DNA of 25,000 nucleotides from the NCBI RefSeq assembly GCF_963675165.1, contig NC_087388.1, positions 3,357,547 to 3,382,546 on the forward strand, read 5' to 3'. This DNA comes from Halichondria panicea (lineage: Eukaryota > Porifera > Demospongiae > Suberitida > Halichondriidae). Shown here in pieces: positions 3,444-17,218 of the stretch (positions are counted from its first letter, which is position 1; every line of letters starts with the position of its first letter). The notes beneath the pieces were generated by a model, which saw only the letters and a list, made by a program, of their open reading frames with translations, was not told the DNA's origin and made no database searches. The position numbers and the translations under genes are program-made.

Positions 3444-3455
3444 CAGGGGCGTAGC
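3444..3455 (+). repeat. Left terminal inverted repeat of the composite element
   Basis: CAGGGGCGTAGC, a perfect 12-bp inverted match to 11425-11436. Homology between the ends does not continue directly inward; it resumes in the subterminal repeats. Confidence 0.75.
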
Positions 3456-3507
3456 AACCATTGTTTCCTGGTTGCCCAGAAACCCCCCCAGGAGCTGCTG
3501 AGAAAAT

Positions 3508-3550
3508 TGGGCAGGGCTCCCCAATAATTGAAATCAAGCAGCCCTGCCCA
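3508..3550. repeat. Hairpin near the left element end
   Basis: TGGGCAGGGCT (3508-3518) pairs with AGCCCTGCCCA (3540-3550): an 11-bp GC-rich stem with a 21-base loop. It is absent from the other end of the element. Confidence 0.75.
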
Positions 3551-3845
3551 TCTTTTCATGCACGTGGCTGCAAATCATGTAGAGATAGCACCGTGAATCG
3601 TTACACTTTGGCTAGCTTTGTCTCAGCTAGCTAGCTAGCTACCTCAAACAAAGAAGACCAAGACTTAAGTTCTAGTATCAATCCTGCATGCTCCAGTATT
3701 CTCAGACTCAGCTCTAAGCACAACTTTATTCGATATTCAGGAAGGACAAGTTTAGAACAATCTCAGCCACATGAAACTTCTCGGGTAAATGTAATGGTGC
3801 TCAGCTAGACTAGCAATACACAATTGACACCTGCCTTTTAGAATG

Positions 3846-4054
3846 TCTATTATGAGGCGTTTGATGGGCAAAAAATTGATAGCTAGTATTCTCTGATGAA
3901 ACTGGTAAAACAGTGACTGATTCTATTACATCGATCGATTGATCTGACAATCCTTCGAAGTCTAAATACAAAAGTATCGGTCAGTAGCCATACAACTGTA
4001 ATTCGACCTTTTCCATACCATGTTGCCTCACATAACTCGAACCTGAATGGGAGA
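3846..4054 (+). repeat. Left subterminal inverted repeat
   Basis: About 205 bp that match the reverse complement of 11047-11246 at roughly 90% by eye, with a 4-bp indel (GAAAC region near 3900) and a few substitutions. A perfect core runs from GGGCAAAAAATTG through AGTATTCTCTGATG. A weaker match (CTAGACTAGC) may extend outward to about 3801. The inner end lies about 80 bp upstream of the integrase ATG, so it may also act as a promoter; that role is inference. Confidence 0.9.
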
Positions 4055-5230
4055 TTTCACCATACCTGCAAACCCTGTCACCCGTATATTTTATTTAGAG
4101 CACTGCTAAAGCTAGCTAGCTGGCTGGGGGATATATGGAGACCACCATAGAACAAGCTTTTTTAGATATTGCATCCTTTGTTCGAGTGACTGCATCAAGG
4201 GAGGAAGGAGCGACACCTTCTGTTGCCGAAGCTACATTGCTTAGGTTGGACGCCTACATCCACTTTCTAAGCTCGTTTAGAGACTTACTAGGAGGTAAGA
4301 ATATAGATCAGTATTCCATATGCTTTTTATAATGTTTGATACTTAGGTGGGGATGTGGATATGGCTGAAGAATTAGTACGTGATGTGGATACTCTAACCG
4401 AGAATATCAGCACAATATACGATCGACGGAAAGATATTGAAGCTGGAGTAGACATCACGTGTCCTAGTAGTGGACTCTTTGCTGAACTGAGACGAAATGG
4501 CAGCCGAGGGAGCCCAAAGTATATAATAAGCCGTGAACAGCTTCTGTTCTTGCATGAATTGAGACTAACCTGGACGAAAATAGCCACAATGTATGGTGTA
4601 AGCCGTCGCACCATGTACAACATAAGGTTAGAATTAGGACTGACGCAAATTGAGTGCCCAAGATTCTCAACAATATCAAATGGAGAACTTGTGTCTATTG
4701 TGTCTGAAATCAAGTGTGATTTTCCAGATATTGGTCAAACCATGCTAAAAGGTATTTTAGATTCGAGAGGAATCTATGTACCAACAACAAGACTACGTGA
4801 TTGTTTGTCTGAGGTTGATCCTGTCAACACTGCTCTACGCTGGACACTACCTATTAGTAGGAGAGTATACTCTGTCCACATGCAAACTCATTGTGGCACA
4901 TCGACAGAAACCACAAATTAGTGAGGTAAGAACACTCGGTAACCCTGTTATAATGCCCCATCTTTTGTTTTTTCACACAGATGGCGATTTGTTGTTCACG
5001 GTTCCATTGATGGATTCTCGAGGTTTATTGTATACCTATGGTGCTCCACTAACAACAAAAGTGACACAGTTTTGGCATTGTTCCATAATGCAGTCCTGGA
5101 GTTTGGCCTTCCTGCAAGATGCAGGAGTGACAAAGGAGGGGAGAACGTTAAGGTACATAGTAGTATGTGGCCCATTATCTCTACGTAATTACCATAATTA
5201 TGGATTCATTTGAATAGCTCGGTCAGTAAA

Positions 5231-5410
5231 ATACCGTAAGACCTCAATATAAGCCAACCCTCCGAATATGCAATGCCCTCGAGCTTACGCAATTTTCTGT
5301 AGCGACAGCTGCGTTGACAACAATTACCCTGTAGTCTGTAGTGGAATATAACTACAAAAAATAGATTTTTGTGTACATATAGTACAGTAGATTCTCGTTA
5401 ATCCGGCCAC
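5231..5410. other. Possible solitary transposon ends in integrase intron 3
   Basis: CAGTAGATTCTCGTTAATCC (from 5385, after TA) resembles the terminal repeat of pogo/Tigger-type elements. The sequence from 5231 (CGTAAGACCTCAATATAAGCC region) resembles another element terminus. No inverted partner was found for either within the window, so these may be deleted remnants. Confidence 0.3.
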
Positions 5411-5498
5411 CCTTGAAGTCCTTTAGTAGACTTCAACATAATTTTTCAAGCAACCTTTGGCATTTAAAAGTATCGATCACCTTAAATTAAGGTATTAC

Positions 5499-5711
5499 CA
5501 AGGGCGTATGAAGAGAAGAGGGCATGCAACTCCCAATGTATACTGTGTATGCGTCGTATTATTGATGAGTCAGCAGGATATGCTATATTTAGCCAACCGC
5601 CCACTAGGGAATAAAGCTAGTCAGAGTATACATTCTTTAATATTTTTAGACCCGCTCATTTGTAATACGATACATTGTAGTTGCATGCCCTCTTCTCTTC
5701 ATACGCCCTTG
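5499..5711. mobile_element. 213-bp MITE inside integrase intron 3
   Basis: CAAGGGCGTATGAAGAG and the following bases (5499-5533) are mirrored by the reverse complement at 5678-5711, a near-perfect terminal inverted repeat of about 35 bp. The pairing continues more loosely inward (CAATGTAT against ATACATTG, then CGTATTA against TAATACG) with a 12-base gap. GTATTAC flanks both sides directly (5492-5498 and 5712-5718), consistent with a 7-bp duplication, although the boundary is ambiguous by one or two bases. No coding capacity. It landed within the intron and so lengthened the intron without cutting an exon. Confidence 0.88.
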
Positions 5712-6337
5712 GTATTACGGTAACAGTTTGTTCATATAATTATTAGATACTGTTTCAGCTAGTACTGAGATACAAATGTACTACAATGATTCTCTTTTTA
5801 GGTTGCGGAGTACATGCTATTGCACAGCCGATGCTCTAATCCCATGCTTACCGGCTCATCAGTTCATAACCAACGAGTAGAACGACTGTGGAGGGATGCA
5901 TATCGTTGTGTGCTGTCACTTTATTATCAGGTTTTTTATTACCTTGAGAACACGGAATTGCTGGATCCGATTAATGACATCGATTTGTTTTGCTTACATT
6001 TTGTATATGAACAAAGGATCAATAATTCTTTAAAAGCTTTTGTAGATGGTTGGAACAATCACGGCTTATCTTATCCACAGAAAATAACAGAACTCCTATA
6101 CAGCTATTTGTCTCAAGTTGTATACAAACAACAGCTGCACAAAACCATACTGATGATATTATACACCCGTTTATGAATGAAGTGTTCGCTGAAACTGTCG
6201 AAGTTCCATCAACCTCATGCCCTCTATCACCGTCTCAGGAGAGGCACTTAAGGGGCATCACATCCTCAGAATCCAGTGATTATGGCATTGAAATGTATAA
6301 GAGTGTTCGTGACTTTGTTTATAATTGTGTTAATTAA

Positions 6338-6532
6338 GTATTATTTTGTCATCAATAATTGATAATTAATAATTTTTTCATGATATTGAAGAACATGACA
6401 TGGTTGATCACTTGAAATTGAATCGACAGTTGTGACAAGAATAGCATATAATAGCAATGCTTATGAAAATGAGAATGAGTAGTATAGGTATAAGTAATTA
6501 AGCTTTGGGAAGTTTGTTGTTTCAGTGATGTT
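6338..6532. terminator. Shared 3' intergenic gap between convergent genes
   Basis: Only 195 bp separates the stop of the integrase gene (plus) from the stop of the HECT gene (minus). It is AT-rich, with ATCAATAATTGATAATTAATAATT directly after the integrase stop forming short dyads, and no canonical AATAAA near either stop was noted. Polyadenylation of both genes must occur here or overlap; this is inference from the layout. Confidence 0.35.
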
Positions 6533-6664
6533 TCACGCAAGTCCATATCCGAATCCAAAGACTAGAGCTTTGCGGAAAGCGTCTACAAAGTCATGATTAG
6601 AATCGTGAACAGTAGGTAAGTAGAGCTTTGAGAAGCAAGCCTGTGCTTTCGGGAGTGTTTCTTT

Positions 6665-6667
6665 CTA
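6665..6667 (-). other. In-frame nonsense codon before the HECT catalytic cysteine
   Basis: In the last exon the frame reads ...FPIELT, TAG, KETLPKAQAC... The homology to the HECT C-lobe runs straight through the stop, so it is a substitution in coding sequence and not an exon end. The last 40 or so residues, including the thioester Cys and the terminal aromatic tail, would be lost. Confidence 0.85.
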
Positions 6668-8454
6668 GGTCAATTCAATCGGAAACTCCAAACCCATTGG
6701 GGGAATGGCAGACGCCCCAGTTATGAATTTCAGAACGCAACGAAGTTCAGAATCTGTAATGAAGTAAACATGCTGTATGTAAATAGATCTAGGTGATAAA
6801 AAGGTACCTTTCCTAGCTGGCAATAATTAAGGCTAATAAGCAAATAATTTATGTTTACTGCTTTGAGGCCATGGAAGCAAGCATGCATGTGTGCTCTAAT
6901 AAGCTAAGCACCACAACAAAATAATTAATGAGAACAGGAAAAAATTGTTAGTGCTTGTATTACGGCAGTTCTATAATTAGAATGGCTACGGTACAGGCTA
7001 CGTCTTTTCTACTAGTACAAACAGGGGCTCCTGATATGAACAAACAAACCAAGAGTAACGCACAGTCGTCCCACATAGTTCTACATTTCCTGTAATTACT
7101 AAGACTGTTTTACAAACTATAGTTATACAACTCACCTCCTAGAGATGAAACAAAATCCTTAAAGAATCCAAACGCTTGAAGCTCCCGTGTTTTCTTTGGT
7201 TGAATTGAGCCTACAAGCTTCATGAAAGTATCTGGAGTCATCAGAACATTCTCGGTCACAAATAACTTCTTGGTCATAGCTGGATGCCTTCTGATCATAT
7301 CTGTGATACCAAGTACTTTCAGGCCACGCACAAAGGCTTTCAAGTTTCGCTCACGCTTCACAATTACTTCATCAAGCATCAAATGCTGGAGAAAATGGTG
7401 CTTGTTGCTTGGGGTGATAGGCTCGATGAGGCTCCAACCACACCCATTCAAAATGTATGTATTTGCAGGCTTGTCAAGAATTTCATCAATCTGATCTTCG
7501 TTCAAAGCAGTAGCCATCTGTAAGTGTTGGTACACAACACACTCATTACGTTTAACTGTGGCAATTAAGACACACATCACAATCACAAACCAGGAAATCA
7601 CTTACCTCTTCAATGAAGGTAATTAGCTCGTGTGAAGAAATGTTGAGTGGTATATCTTCTTTCACTGGATAGCACTGGTCAACTTCACCGTGCACCATGT
7701 AGTCATATACACAGACACTAAGACAGGGAAGCCCAGGTCCTTCTTGAAGAATGGAGTGACCAATCATCATTCCGCACATTTCAAACATGAGTTCTAGGCC
7801 CCAGTCTTTCTTTGGTACACGTCTATCTGACTCTCCTTCAAACATTCGCTTATTAGCCTCGATGATTACAGCCTCGAAAAACTCTTTCCTAAGAGCTCCA
7901 GAATCAACTCCTACTTCTCCAACATATTCCACGACAAATTCCCGTTGCAATTTTTGAGGCTTCGACTTTGCGCCTTTATGCCTTTATAAAAAGCAATTGC
8001 TGTTTGCCATAGAACGTCATCTGAGGATCGGTCGACACAAAGTTTGTATACTCGTTCAATTCCAATTGTCTTCTGAGCATGAGATCGTAGTAGATGACTG
8101 AGAGAGTGAGGTTGGATGACAATTGGATCATGTGAGCTTGACCCTGAGGCAGCACCAAATGAGGTACTGGAAAGGTACTCGCTGGCCCCTGGAGAGTGCC
8201 CACAACTCGTCGAGACATCCTACAGACAAATGAGTAAAGCATAATTAAAAAATATTAACAGGGATCTGCCCAGAATTTTTAAGTGGTGGCTAATTCATCT
8301 TCAATGAGGAATTTAATCTTGGTCCGTGACTTCATAATTACAACTTGTTTTACATCCGTAGTAAAAATGTGCTGAGCTGGCAGCCTTTTACTACGAAGTG
8401 TATGTAAATCAATGCGTTTTTGCAGCCTCTGCATTGTGCAATTCAAGCGATGTT

Positions 8455-8640
8455 AAAGGAAGTTTGTGAAATATTGCTACCCGATGGTTTTTGTCCCAGA
8501 GAGTGGTTAACTGTCAGTAAGCGGTCTTTAAGATACCTACTACATACACATTAAGTATAATATCTAGTAGGTATCTTCTAGCTTGTTGACCAACCACTCT
8601 CTGGGACAACCATTGGGTAGCTTTTACACAAACTTCCTTT
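8455..8640. mobile_element. Foldback element in a HECT intron
   Basis: A long imperfect palindrome lies in the 659-bp intron 8220-8878. AAAGGAAGTTTGTG at the left is mirrored at the right, then GCTACCC, ATGGTT and GTCCCAGAGAGTGGTT pair with their complements at 8595-8624, and an inner AGATACCTACTA pairs with TAGTAGGTATCT. The arms are interrupted by unpaired stretches of 3-20 bases. An outer pair (GAGGAATTTAATCT at ~8306 and AGATTAAAATTCCTC at ~8651) suggests a larger ancestral inverted structure. No convincing target duplication was found. Confidence 0.75.
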
Positions 8641-8682
8641 CTTTAGATCTAGATTAAAATTCCTCATGCTCGAAAAAAGTAC

Positions 8683-8701
8683 AAGAGTGTTCGTGACTTT
8701 G
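8683..8701 (+). repeat. 19-base copy of the integrase 3' end
   Basis: AAGAGTGTTCGTGACTTTG here is identical to 6299-6317, which lies in the last codons of the integrase gene. The flanks differ apart from one more shared base upstream. Confidence 0.7.
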
Positions 8702-9532
8702 AAGCAGGTCTAGGTTTGAGCTGTATGTTTTTCAATATCATGAGATTTAAACTTGCCTTTTCTTTATTTATAGCCTAACAGTGGCCCCCGACCAGTGCGG
8801 GTACCACCCCTAGTCCTGACATTATACAAGTATGATAGTAATAATTATGATTGGTACAGCAGTCACAAATGTACTTACAACACCAGGGACTCCTAGTAGT
8901 TTATCGACAGCACCAGAAAATCCAAGCTCCTTAAAGACACCTTCAATATTTTCCCTGCTCACACTAGGGAACATATCAGCTAAGCAAAGCATTCGATCAT
9001 CACATTCATCCTACAACAACAAAATAATGAGTATCAGTCATGGTACAGCTACCAGGGTTCTAGTGTACATAATGAGGGTGGTGGTGGTTTAATGAATGGT
9101 TTTGACTACAAAAGTACTATATATACCACCTCCATATTAAGTTTTCAACACACTTACCGCAGATTCAGTGTCTTCTTTGACAGGTGTAGCACTGCGCTTC
9201 ACAGCCGTCCGCAATACATAGAGACATCCACTGCCCATGAGAGCCCTCACTGTTTCAGCATCCCAGCTAGTAGCATTCTCAACATCATCGAGACTTGCTG
9301 GACGCATGTATCGCCCATTTACATACTGAAAGGACACATCCCACGCATCAGACCAGCAAAAACTCTCCTTTATTTTGACTGCAATTTCAGAAGCGGAAGC
9401 ACTACCTCGGATCCATATCGAACGCGTGTATTTGTCTCTTTCTGAACCAACAGGAGTGTTCTGACGAGGCATAGTTAGTCCCACTACTTTCATTCGTATC
9501 TCTTTCACCTTTTTCTTGCAAGATTTCATTGG

Positions 9533-9562
9533 TTGCTTCCCTTTGCTTCCCTTTGCTTCCCT
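9533..9562. repeat. Three tandem copies of a 10-bp unit in HECT exon 2
   Basis: TTGCTTCCCT three times without a gap (plus strand). On the coding (minus) strand this falls in a basic linker. With a single copy the upstream frame (ending PNKGKQ) runs directly into the downstream frame (MKSCKKKVKEIR); with three copies the frame shifts by 20 bases. The expansion is therefore the apparent cause of the break. Confidence 0.9.
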
Positions 9563-10447
9563 TTGTTAGGACGCTTTGAACGGGGACGAGCGCCAATATT
9601 TGGTGTAGGCTGAAACTCATTATCACTACCCTTACTATTTGCAGAATCAGTACCCGACTTTGTCCCAAACAATTTGCCGAGTTTTTCGCGTATATTATGA
9701 GTTTTTGATGAGAGTTGAGAGGCTTGTTGTTCACTTGTAGTATAAGCTTCGGCCTTATTCATACCAGATTTTGCAGATTGAATGAGGCCACGCAACAGAC
9801 ATCGCTGGCCACAGTTCAGCTCTTCCAGTAGTTGACTGCATTCACTAGAGCTCATATCCAAATTACCTGAATACAAATTTCAGTGATAAAATGTTCTAGC
9901 AAGAGTTCATTAGGAAGAGTACACAACTCCAATAGATCAAAGGAAGGGGATTGGAAACGAAAACGTTTGCATGAAACACTCCGCATTATAGGGCATGGCT
10001 AAAACTACAAAGGAATTATTTTATAGCCAGCATGCTCATTACCTGTCTTGGCTGCCATACAATGTGCTGTACATAGAAATGGTGAAATTGATCACTTTTA
10101 ATGTTAAAAAGTAAAGAGAATATAGCTCTAAAAGGTCGACTAAGCAACGCAACCACTATAACTAAACAGCTATAAAAGAAGGAATAGCCCTTACTATGAA
10201 GTCGTGAGAGGTCAAGGCCCGTGGTGTGTCTAAAAGTATACTAAAGCAGTTTGAAGGACTATACTGCAAACGTTTATGAACAGTAAAGCTTATCCATAGC
10301 ATGAAACCATCCTATATAGCACTTAGATACATAATAACCAAGTCAAGTAATGTCTTTTGCTGTTTAGGCTTCGCAGCAGGGAAAGAGAAAAGTTGACATG
10401 GAGTAATTCAAGCTATACTCAACAAAAACTAAAAACAGAGTAAAGAC

Positions 10448-10465
10448 AGCGGACTTAGCGGACTT
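10448..10465. repeat. 9-bp perfect tandem duplication
   Basis: AGCGGACTT at 10448-10456 and 10457-10465. Confidence 0.9.
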
Positions 10466-10606
10466 AGACAAGTTAGAGCTTGTGTAAACTTACTTCTCTA
10501 GAGTAACCTCCCAGCCTCTGAGTGATCGCTAGTGGATAGGAGAGCTAGAAACAGTTGAAATACAACCAGAGTACGGTCAAAACAAAAATAATCGCGAGCG
10601 CGAAAT

Positions 10607-10634
10607 CATAACGCGGAGTGCATAACGCGGAGTG
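10607..10634. repeat. 14-bp perfect tandem duplication
   Basis: CATAACGCGGAGTG at 10607-10620 and again at 10621-10634. Confidence 0.95.
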
Positions 10635-11046
10635 TTTCAACCATTTACACAGGGAGGCCTGGTCGTTTCCAATCCCTTTCCTTTTCAATATAATTATGAA
10701 TAGACTGTATACACAGGAGGCATTCTGTCTGACCTATGTCACAGATACTCTGTAACCGGTACAAGGCGCTAATCTCCTAGATCCTAGCAACTGCATGAAA
10801 GTAAGTACGTAGGTATAATTATTATTCACTTACTCAGGGACATAGTGGATCTAAATCCATGATAATGAAGAATTCTAATAATGTCTTCTTCTCCTCCTTG
10901 CAACTTCACCCATGTGACAAAATCAGAAGGGCAAGCTCCACTGGATCCTGCCTGGCCTGGACTCTCAGCCATCATAAAAATTTTTATACACGAGGCAGTG
11001 CTACAAATGCGCATGTGCAATCTTAGTTCTATTCTATCTAGATCTA

Positions 11047-11246
11047 ATTCTCATTCCGGTTCGAGATATGTGGCAACATAGTATGGAAAAGGTCGAATTG
11101 CAGTTGTATGGCTATTGACTGAATCACATAGACTTCGACGGATTGTCAGATTGATCGATCGATGTAATAGAATCAGTCACTGTTTTACCACATCAGAGAA
11201 TACTAGCTATCAATTTTTTGCCCACCAAACGCCCCATAGTCTATAG
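11047..11246 (-). repeat. Right subterminal inverted repeat
   Basis: Inverted partner of 3846-4054. Its inner end lies about 71 bp upstream of the HECT ATG, almost the same spacing as on the integrase side. Outside it, 11242-11275 is a CTAG-rich stretch (repeated GCTAGCTAGACTAG). Confidence 0.9.
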
Positions 11247-11424
11247 CTAGCTAGACTAGCTAGTCTAGCTAGCTTCTCACAAACATGTAAAAAAAGTCAT
11301 TACAAACAATGAGCAGTAGGTGTAACCAGTAGGTGTGCCCAATCAAGAGGGTGTGGCACCAGAAGTGGGCGTGACTAAGCGGCGCCGCTGGTTTTTCAAA
11401 GGAAACCCCTATGTCAAAAGTCTG

Positions 11425-11436
11425 GCTACGCCCCTG
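11425..11436 (-). repeat. Right terminal inverted repeat of the composite element
   Basis: GCTACGCCCCTG, the perfect reverse complement of 3444-3455. It is followed at once by CACACC and CA/GGGG array DNA. Confidence 0.75.
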
Positions 11437-16540: not shown

Positions 16541-17218
16541 ATGGCCGACGAGCTAGAGCTAGGAGATGTTTCAGCAGGAAGAACACTAAAGCTGAAAAAC
16601 GTAGAATGAGAGTCAAGAGAAAGCGTTCTCAACTTCGAGCTGCTGTTCAAACTCAGCTAGAATTAGAACGTAGTCTAAAAGTCGAGGCAGAGAAGAAAGT
16701 TGTAGTAACATGTCCAGGAGTTACTGGGAACATTTGTGTTGGGAACTAGAAAAAAGGAGGACTAGTGTTGCTGAAGAGAAAAGGCAGCTACTGTCAATTT
16801 TAAGTAGCTCCAAAACATGTGAGCTACATGAAATTCATCCTGATCTTTTACAGGATGTTATAGTAAATGGAAAGAAGAAAGAACTCTTTATAGGCAGAGG
16901 CTCATTTGGTGTTGTTCGCTTGCAAATGTACAGAAAAATGAAGGTCGCAGTCAAAGAGCTACTTCCTCACACGGATGTTGTCAAAGAAGCAGCGATTCTC
17001 ACAATTGTGTCATCCAAACCTTCCGTTATTATTTGGAGTAGTGACAAGCAAATTGCCATATCGGATTGTTATGCAATACCATGGATTGCCAAACTCATCT
17101 ACGTCTGTAACACTTGCTAAGTACCTAACAACTGAAAAATATGGATCATCTGCCTGTGTGCACAGCTAGCTGAAGCTCTACGTACAATGCACTCTAGCTC
17201 TAGCTTTGTTGACAGTTG
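16541..17218 (+). pseudogene. Protein kinase N-lobe with charged N-terminus, frameshifted
   Basis: From ATG at 16541 the product begins MADELELGDVSA, then shifts frame near 16575 into a Lys/Arg/Glu-rich helix (RVKRKRSQLRAAVQTQLELE). It shifts again near 16705 into NMSRSYWEHLCWELEKRR, and on to LHEIHPDLLQD. A glycine loop (GRGSFGVV) and the catalytic Lys (VAVKEL) follow. A third shift near 16995 leads to HPNLPLLFGVV and a hinge-like IVMQYHGL, and a fourth to an alpha-E-like CAQLAEALRTMH at about 17155-17200. The fragment stops before the HRD loop, so it lacks catalytic and DFG residues. I recall this arrangement (charged helix, SRSYWE, kinase) from a large sponge kinase family; that is memory, not a search. 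At least four indels make it a pseudogene. Confidence 0.65.

Follow-up and report, generated by a model that had tools for sequence, protein, structure and literature searches.

The window analysed here is a stretch of 25,000 nucleotides from the sponge Halichondria panicea (contig NC_087388.1, positions 3,357,547 to 3,382,546 of the forward strand; C12:3357547-3382546 in our own contig labels). It contains two genes that point towards each other, one for an integrase of the rva_4 type and one for a predicted HECT-type ubiquitin ligase. Both lie within an IS3EU-like transposon of 7,388 bp, located at 3851..11238 of the window, and this transposon in turn sits inside an older repeat. The genome measures 131 Mb in 39 contigs, and all genome-wide searches described below cover this one genome. 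A preliminary description, made from the letters of the window alone, had proposed a transposon with these two genes and with wider borders.

The integrase gene is found at 4135..6176 on the + strand. Its exons were placed by eye, from reading frames and GT/AG boundaries, at about 4135-4294, 4347-4925, 4981-5152 and 5802-6176. Exons 3 and 4 match PF24764 (rva_4), with E values of 7.6e-25 and 9.8e-29, which bears out the DDE/rve-type recombinase first described here. Exon 2 has an HTH_23 match below the cut-off. The reading frame changes near 4880. Retained among the catalytic residues are the second Asp and the Glu, with 33 residues between them. This distance is 32-36 residues in 15 of 17 integrase rows from across the genome; the other two are decayed or unmatched by the D/E pattern used.

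Three relatives, at loci labelled L068, L066 and L070, have long open integrase frames of 435, 347 and 335 amino acids. Their matches include rva_4 and rve. Among their HTH matches, the HTH_7 in L066 is just above its cut-off and the others are below theirs, and no zinc-finger domain was matched in Pfam at E<=0.1. A virus collection searched with the L070 integrase gave no match.

The HECT ligase gene occupies 6536..10979 on the - strand, convergent with the integrase as originally stated. Its coding stretches, again placed by eye, are at about 10979-10835, 9866-9157, 9010-8876, 8216-7606, 7517-7131 and 6755-6536. PF00632 matches the last coding exon at 6608-6772 with 34.4 bits, above cut-off. 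The reading frame of the gene shifts near 9550 and again near 7980, and a TAG codon in frame, at 6665-6667, precedes the catalytic Cys. Behind that stop the window reads Ala-Cys where its relatives have Thr-Cys. All 16 of the aligned families other than the window have this Thr-Cys pair without variation.

Profile searches point the same way. Against the PDB, a C-lobe profile finds AREL1 first (E 7.3e-10), then HUWE1, SMURF2, E6AP and others. An N-lobe profile built from pieces of the window, L066 and L070 matches E6AP (E 1.4e-7); the window piece alone has no Pfam match. The predicted structure of the C-lobe is of moderate confidence (pLDDT 69.8). Compared with the PDB, HECT proteins fill ranks 1-49 of the 50 shown, all of them weak, with a best E of 0.028 and no HECT match at E below 0.001. 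The likeness to AREL1 and E6AP extends to both lobes and the catalytic Cys, and the difference is that the HECT gene here is transposon-encoded, with N-terminal regions that resemble no known family at the thresholds applied. The N-terminal regions of the window HECT and of L068 do not match each other either.

Some finer points of the domain assignment did not survive. A SAM-like domain, proposed for one exon, has no Pfam match there at E<=1, and the proposed CUE domain has only a weak one (E 0.11, below cut-off). The HECT gene had also been likened to the G2E3-like type. G2E3 carries PHD/RING fingers ahead of its HECT domain. The HECT domain is indeed shared, but the scanned window exons have no PHD or RING match in Pfam at E<=1. 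G2E3 itself has been dated later than the split of chordates and echinoderms, according to the part of the source available to us (PMC2837046).

The borders of the unit are a separate matter. The 12 bp sequence CAGGGGCGTAGC does occur exactly and inverted at 3444-3455 and 11425-11436, as was seen from the start, and the preliminary description took these sites for the ends of a unit carrying both genes. Exact CAGGGGCGTAGC sites number 493 in the genome (216 + 277), against 0 for the same pattern read backwards. Among the matches listed, 20 facing pairs were fetched. Thirteen of these match about 376-407 bp of the left part and about 109-198 bp of the right part, with both genes absent; two match over 44 bp only, and five have no match to the 3444-11436 unit. 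A search for the same two genes between the same ends, suggested along with the original proposal, came up empty in the 13 copies matching both parts. The proposal had also named ends occurring apart from the genes as evidence against it, and for these borders that is what was found.

Two intact copies, L050 and L051, make clear what happened. The left part of the window repeat (3444..3850, + strand) is 98.3% and 98.8% identical to them respectively, and the right part (11239..11436, + strand) is 84-90% identical and directly joined there to the left part. Fusing the two outer parts with one GTCTAT gives an identity of 95.3% to L050 and 93.8% to L051. Both are continuous through the junction and have GTCTAT once, which makes this an empty site. 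The CAGGGGCGTAGC ends therefore are not the borders of the gene-carrying unit: they belong to a host repeat of about 600 bp, interrupted by the inner transposon at 3851-11238. A single transposon spanning 3444-11436 would have its exact inverted ends in its favour, plus the CACACC that is present outside both of them. In CA-rich flanks like these, two 6-mers agree by chance about 5% of the time, so as a target duplication the CACACC match is weak. Other CAGGGGCGTAGC copies have an exact duplication of 5 bp instead (13 of 20; one of the seven lacking it had no left flank fetched). With the empty sites in L050 and L051 ruling out these borders, next to no weight is left for such a unit.

Since the outer parts are contiguous in L050 and L051, the inner transposon is the stretch 3851-11238, flanked by GTCTAT at 3845..3850 and, in an exact repeat, at 11239..11244. 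It starts with TATG and stops with CATA, with end sequences TATGAGGCGTTTG and TATGGGGCGTTTG. Its terminal inverted repeats lie at 3851..4056 (+) and 11046..11238 (-) and are 86% identical, in 178 of 206 columns. These are the long subterminal inverted repeats noted early on; the repeats are real, and are actually the terminal repeats of the inner transposon. A scan for ends (TA..TA more than 2.5 kb apart, an exact 6 bp repeat, and at least 15 of 20 end bases matching) finds 3851-11238 as the sole pair in the window, with 18 of 20 end bases. The reversed window, used as a control, gave two pairs, with 17/20 and 15/20, which is why the scan is insufficient as proof by itself. It is the empty site that proves the borders.

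The window element is an old and inactive copy. Its terminal repeats diverge by 14%. A genome search with each terminal repeat found four matches: the element itself (two), C3:3755053 and C16:3276967. The window HECT exon has one other match, at C16:3258316, with 63% identity and two TGA codons, some 18 kb from the terminal-repeat match on that contig. Adjoining this HECT match are retroelement-like frames, as judged by eye. The relative at C16:3253-3277 kb (L061/L062, with the HECT exons in L061) looks fragmented.

The element also hosts smaller repeats. A 215 bp inverted-repeat element with CCAAGGGCGTATGAAGAG ends and TATTA on both sides is found at 5498-5712, within the last integrase intron. 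Between HECT exons one and two there is a 728 bp repeat with GGATTGGAAACGA inverted ends (9948-10675). A sequence about 90% identical to it is present in L066, outside the element there, and a piece of a relative hosts the CAGGGGCGTAGC repeat of L050. A 186 bp imperfect palindrome (75%) is located inside a HECT intron, at 8455-8640.

The convergent pair is not confined to the window. Four further complete elements, from three other families, enclose convergent integrase and HECT genes between their TATG ends and have exact 6 bp duplications. Two of these, L069 (3,950 bp, duplication CTTTTT) and L070 (4,102 bp, GGAGGT), are copies with 98.5% identity over their main stretch, both with ends TATGGAACGCC. 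The third (L091/L068, C6:6850387-6857378) measures 6,992 bp, with an ATTACT duplication and ends TATGGAGCGCC. The fourth, at 1242-6072 of L066, has a CGCATA duplication and ends TATGAGGTGCC. Its inverted-repeat alignment begins and finishes exactly at the element ends. It is still the weakest of the four, because tandem repeats in L066 yield many other end pairs, as they do in the reversed control.

The same scan found no element ends in L064/L065, L063 or L061/L062. L064/L065 (C9:2872001-2884500) is an inverted pair with arms of 1,975 bp and 99.8% identity, and each arm carries integrase and HECT ends in facing orientation. Judging by coordinates, C1 may have two similar inverted pairs, and C8, C13 and C16 may have others, at distances of up to 26 kb. 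These are possibly composite elements.

To see how general the pairing is, 120 genome matches to PF00632 were merged into 68 HECT loci, and the 150 listed of 156 matches to PF24764 into 113 rva_4 loci. Such match counts are lower bounds. Among the matches listed, 41 of the 68 HECT loci have an rva_4 integrase no more than 6 kb away. Forty of these are convergent, and the remaining one is divergent, 4.8 kb away. Random placement of loci gave a mean of 0.79 pairs and a maximum of 5 in 200 trials; the trials omitted HECT loci on C11, C14 and C23, so this mean is somewhat low. Viewed from the integrase side, again among the matches listed, 46 of 113 rva_4 loci have a PF00632 neighbour within 6 kb. 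Near-identical copies were each counted, so the pairing counts are not independent. Together with the four elements, these figures uphold the proposed DNA transposon that carries HECT and integrase genes and recurs. They are also consistent, in this one genome, with the suggestion that transposition is behind its numerous HECT genes.

As controls, two other domains were placed against the listed rva_4 starts. Of 552 RING candidates 150 were scored and listed, and just 1 of these falls within 7 kb; of 8 alpha-kinase matches none does. The listed zf-RING_2 matches are dense in a few stretches of C3, C6 and C12 (for example C3:0.08-0.8 Mb and C6:0.84-1.26 Mb), possibly a RING gene expansion of another kind. 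In the window itself, the reading frame at 16674-17120 is open and, as judged by eye only, has a glycine loop (GRGSFGVVRL) like that of protein kinases.

The divergence of the paired genes was compared across 26 sequences. Removing nine near-duplicates (L066, L071, L076, L082, L083, L085, L087, L089 and L090) left 17 families, with a median pairwise identity of 34% for the HECT end and 52% for the integrase core. The two distance matrices correlate (Mantel r 0.458), and 0 of 20,000 permutations reached as high. In eight family pairs pN is well under pS in HECT. Two of these pairs have a HECT dN/dS of 0.20 and 0.26; in the other six dS is saturated and dN low. The HECT tree has a clade of five families, called B-type here, with a support of 99/100, and against the Pfam cut-off of 23.9 bits B-type HECT ends score 24.8, 23.3 and 15.2, so near it or below. 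Long joint inheritance of HECT and integrase is likely on these alignments.

How does this compare with known systems? As far as the accessible text of the source goes, IS3EU elements have TA..TA ends, usually 6 bp target duplications, and an IS3-like transposase without an HHCC finger (PMC10045372). The window element, L066, L068, L069 and L070 all have TATG...CATA termini. Their duplications, GTCTAT, CGCATA, ATTACT, CTTTTT and GGAGGT, are all exact. The scans of L066, L068 and L070 show an rve-like DDE transposase without the HHCC finger, with the D/E spacing as given above for 15 of 17 rows. IS3EU and GingerRoot are similar in all three respects, including the lack of an N-terminal HHCC finger, in the same accessible text (PMC10045372). 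It is on these published features that the window element is called IS3EU-like. The difference is the HECT gene: 'hect' appears 0 times in the portion of that paper available (PMC10045372).

Fungal IS3EU elements form an instructive parallel, based on the available part of their description (PMC12730594). They carry TET genes, which their author reads as aiding escape from silencing, and also an alpha-kinase gene in the orientation opposite to the transposase. They share with the sponge elements the 6 bp duplications and a second enzyme gene opposite to the transposase. Their ends, TAYGG..CCRTA, are fitted by L068, L069/L070 and the right window end, but the left window end and L066 read TATGA. 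Where the fungal elements have alpha-kinase and TET (PMC12730594, same part), the sponge elements have HECT, and none of the 8 alpha-kinase matches in this genome is near a listed rva_4 start. A literature search, with subscription papers and Repbase outside it, found no report of HECT in IS3EU-type elements, and provisionally the combination may be called unreported.

Taken together, we consider it probable that this is a lineage of IS3EU-like transposons carrying a long-kept HECT module, of which the window copy was inserted into an older CAGGGGCGTAGC repeat and then decayed. The HECT gene would belong to the lineage, rather than being a chance passenger, because many diverged families have the convergent pair and these relatives keep the catalytic Cys. 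The element would move by cut-and-paste: by analogy with its family, the integrase would cut at the TA..TA ends and join these to a target with a 6 bp stagger. The predicted ligase would serve the element. Its most likely target for ubiquitination would be a host factor by which expression or integration of the element is held down; control of integrase turnover is less likely.

Several observations weigh against this reading. Both genes of the window copy are disrupted by frame changes, and the HECT gene also by its in-frame stop. The selection estimate is based on 58 to 74 codons, with dS mostly saturated. B-type integrases take two tree positions without strong support, and placing them together is not rejected (p-AU 0.105). 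As B-type HECTs form one clade while their integrases fall in two places, exchange of the HECT module between elements is possible. A tree of host and transposon HECT ends, for which only 4 of the 14 exons fetched had sufficient length, did not set the transposon HECTs apart from host HECTs as one clade.

Counts made with a HECT-like set, enlarged with matches to two HECT ends and the window HECT exon, speak on both sides. Of the 75 rva_4 matches of at least 150 bits, 53 have a convergent HECT-like match as their closest one within 6 kb, in favour of the reading; for 5 it is tandem, and 17 have none. A single family accounts for four of the tandem cases, and its HECT has another rva_4 piece, a decayed one, in facing orientation; in the fifth case the HECT-like match is 4.9 kb off. 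Among the 17, reading about 3 kb downstream of three (L092-L094) turned up no HECT end, and neither did the 3.3 kb of L034. By local profile, L038 does have a HECT end. At C3:4576379 a HECT match in facing orientation lies 7.4 kb off, beyond the limit of 6 kb. On the integrase strand, L093 has a relative of the L068 frame 5179-5685 (36% over 126), a frame that sits upstream of the L068 HECT exons. Because 17 of 75 lack a HECT-like match, and the three read downstream show none, the HECT module is not universal.

For the role of the ligase our order of preference is host factor, then integrase, then passive carriage. The first, counter-control of a host factor restraining the element, we favour tentatively, as a reasonable possibility. 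It is favoured because the active-site residues are conserved but the window and L068 have dissimilar N-terminal regions, as expected of changing targets, and because fungal IS3EU carry TET genes that, in the part of the source at hand, are read as aiding escape from silencing (PMC12730594).

In the same element, the ligase could instead target the integrase or transpososome, either to keep transposition from running too high or to release the strand-transfer complex. Convergent genes forming one unit would suit this, and the divergences of HECT and integrase correlate as they would for co-adapted partners, but co-inheritance alone yields the same correlation. That the window N-terminal region is unlike that of L068, though L068 and L093 share one, also speaks against it, and we deem an integrase target unlikely.

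Less likely again is a HECT passenger that was picked up on one or more occasions and does nothing for the element. The 17 strong rva_4 matches without a HECT-like neighbour argue for this, since they imply that some copies, if complete, persist without HECT. On the other hand, Thr-Cys is invariant, dN is low compared to dS, and a single orientation is found in 40 of 41 pairs, which leaves a passenger rather improbable.

Finally, the HECT genes might be ordinary host genes near which rva_4 elements prefer to insert. Host HECT genes do exist, since among the matches listed 27 of the 68 HECT loci are more than 6 kb from any rva_4, and these 27 and the 41 near ones fit a normal complement of host genes with a further set carried by transposons; HECT gene totals per species range from 9 to 28 in a table in the accessible part of one survey (PMC2837046). 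But near-identical, equally spaced pairs are found on different contigs, and in five complete elements HECT lies within matched ends and duplication, which rules this explanation out for those five and makes it highly improbable overall.

A wider and more doubtful possibility is that IS3EU-type elements in animals have a slot, convergent to the transposase, for a protein-modifying enzyme: HECT here, alpha-kinase in fungi. The ligase would then be a dedicated factor for counter-defence or transposition control, and such elements would supply most HECT loci (41 of 68 in this genome).

Should the pairing prove general, there would be an entire lineage of transposons with a ubiquitin ligase of its own. 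Such a ligase would offer a direct route to the host proteins by which DNA transposons are kept in check. Mobile elements would also be inflating HECT gene counts in some genomes, and expanded E3 families there would need to be re-examined before being called host innovation.

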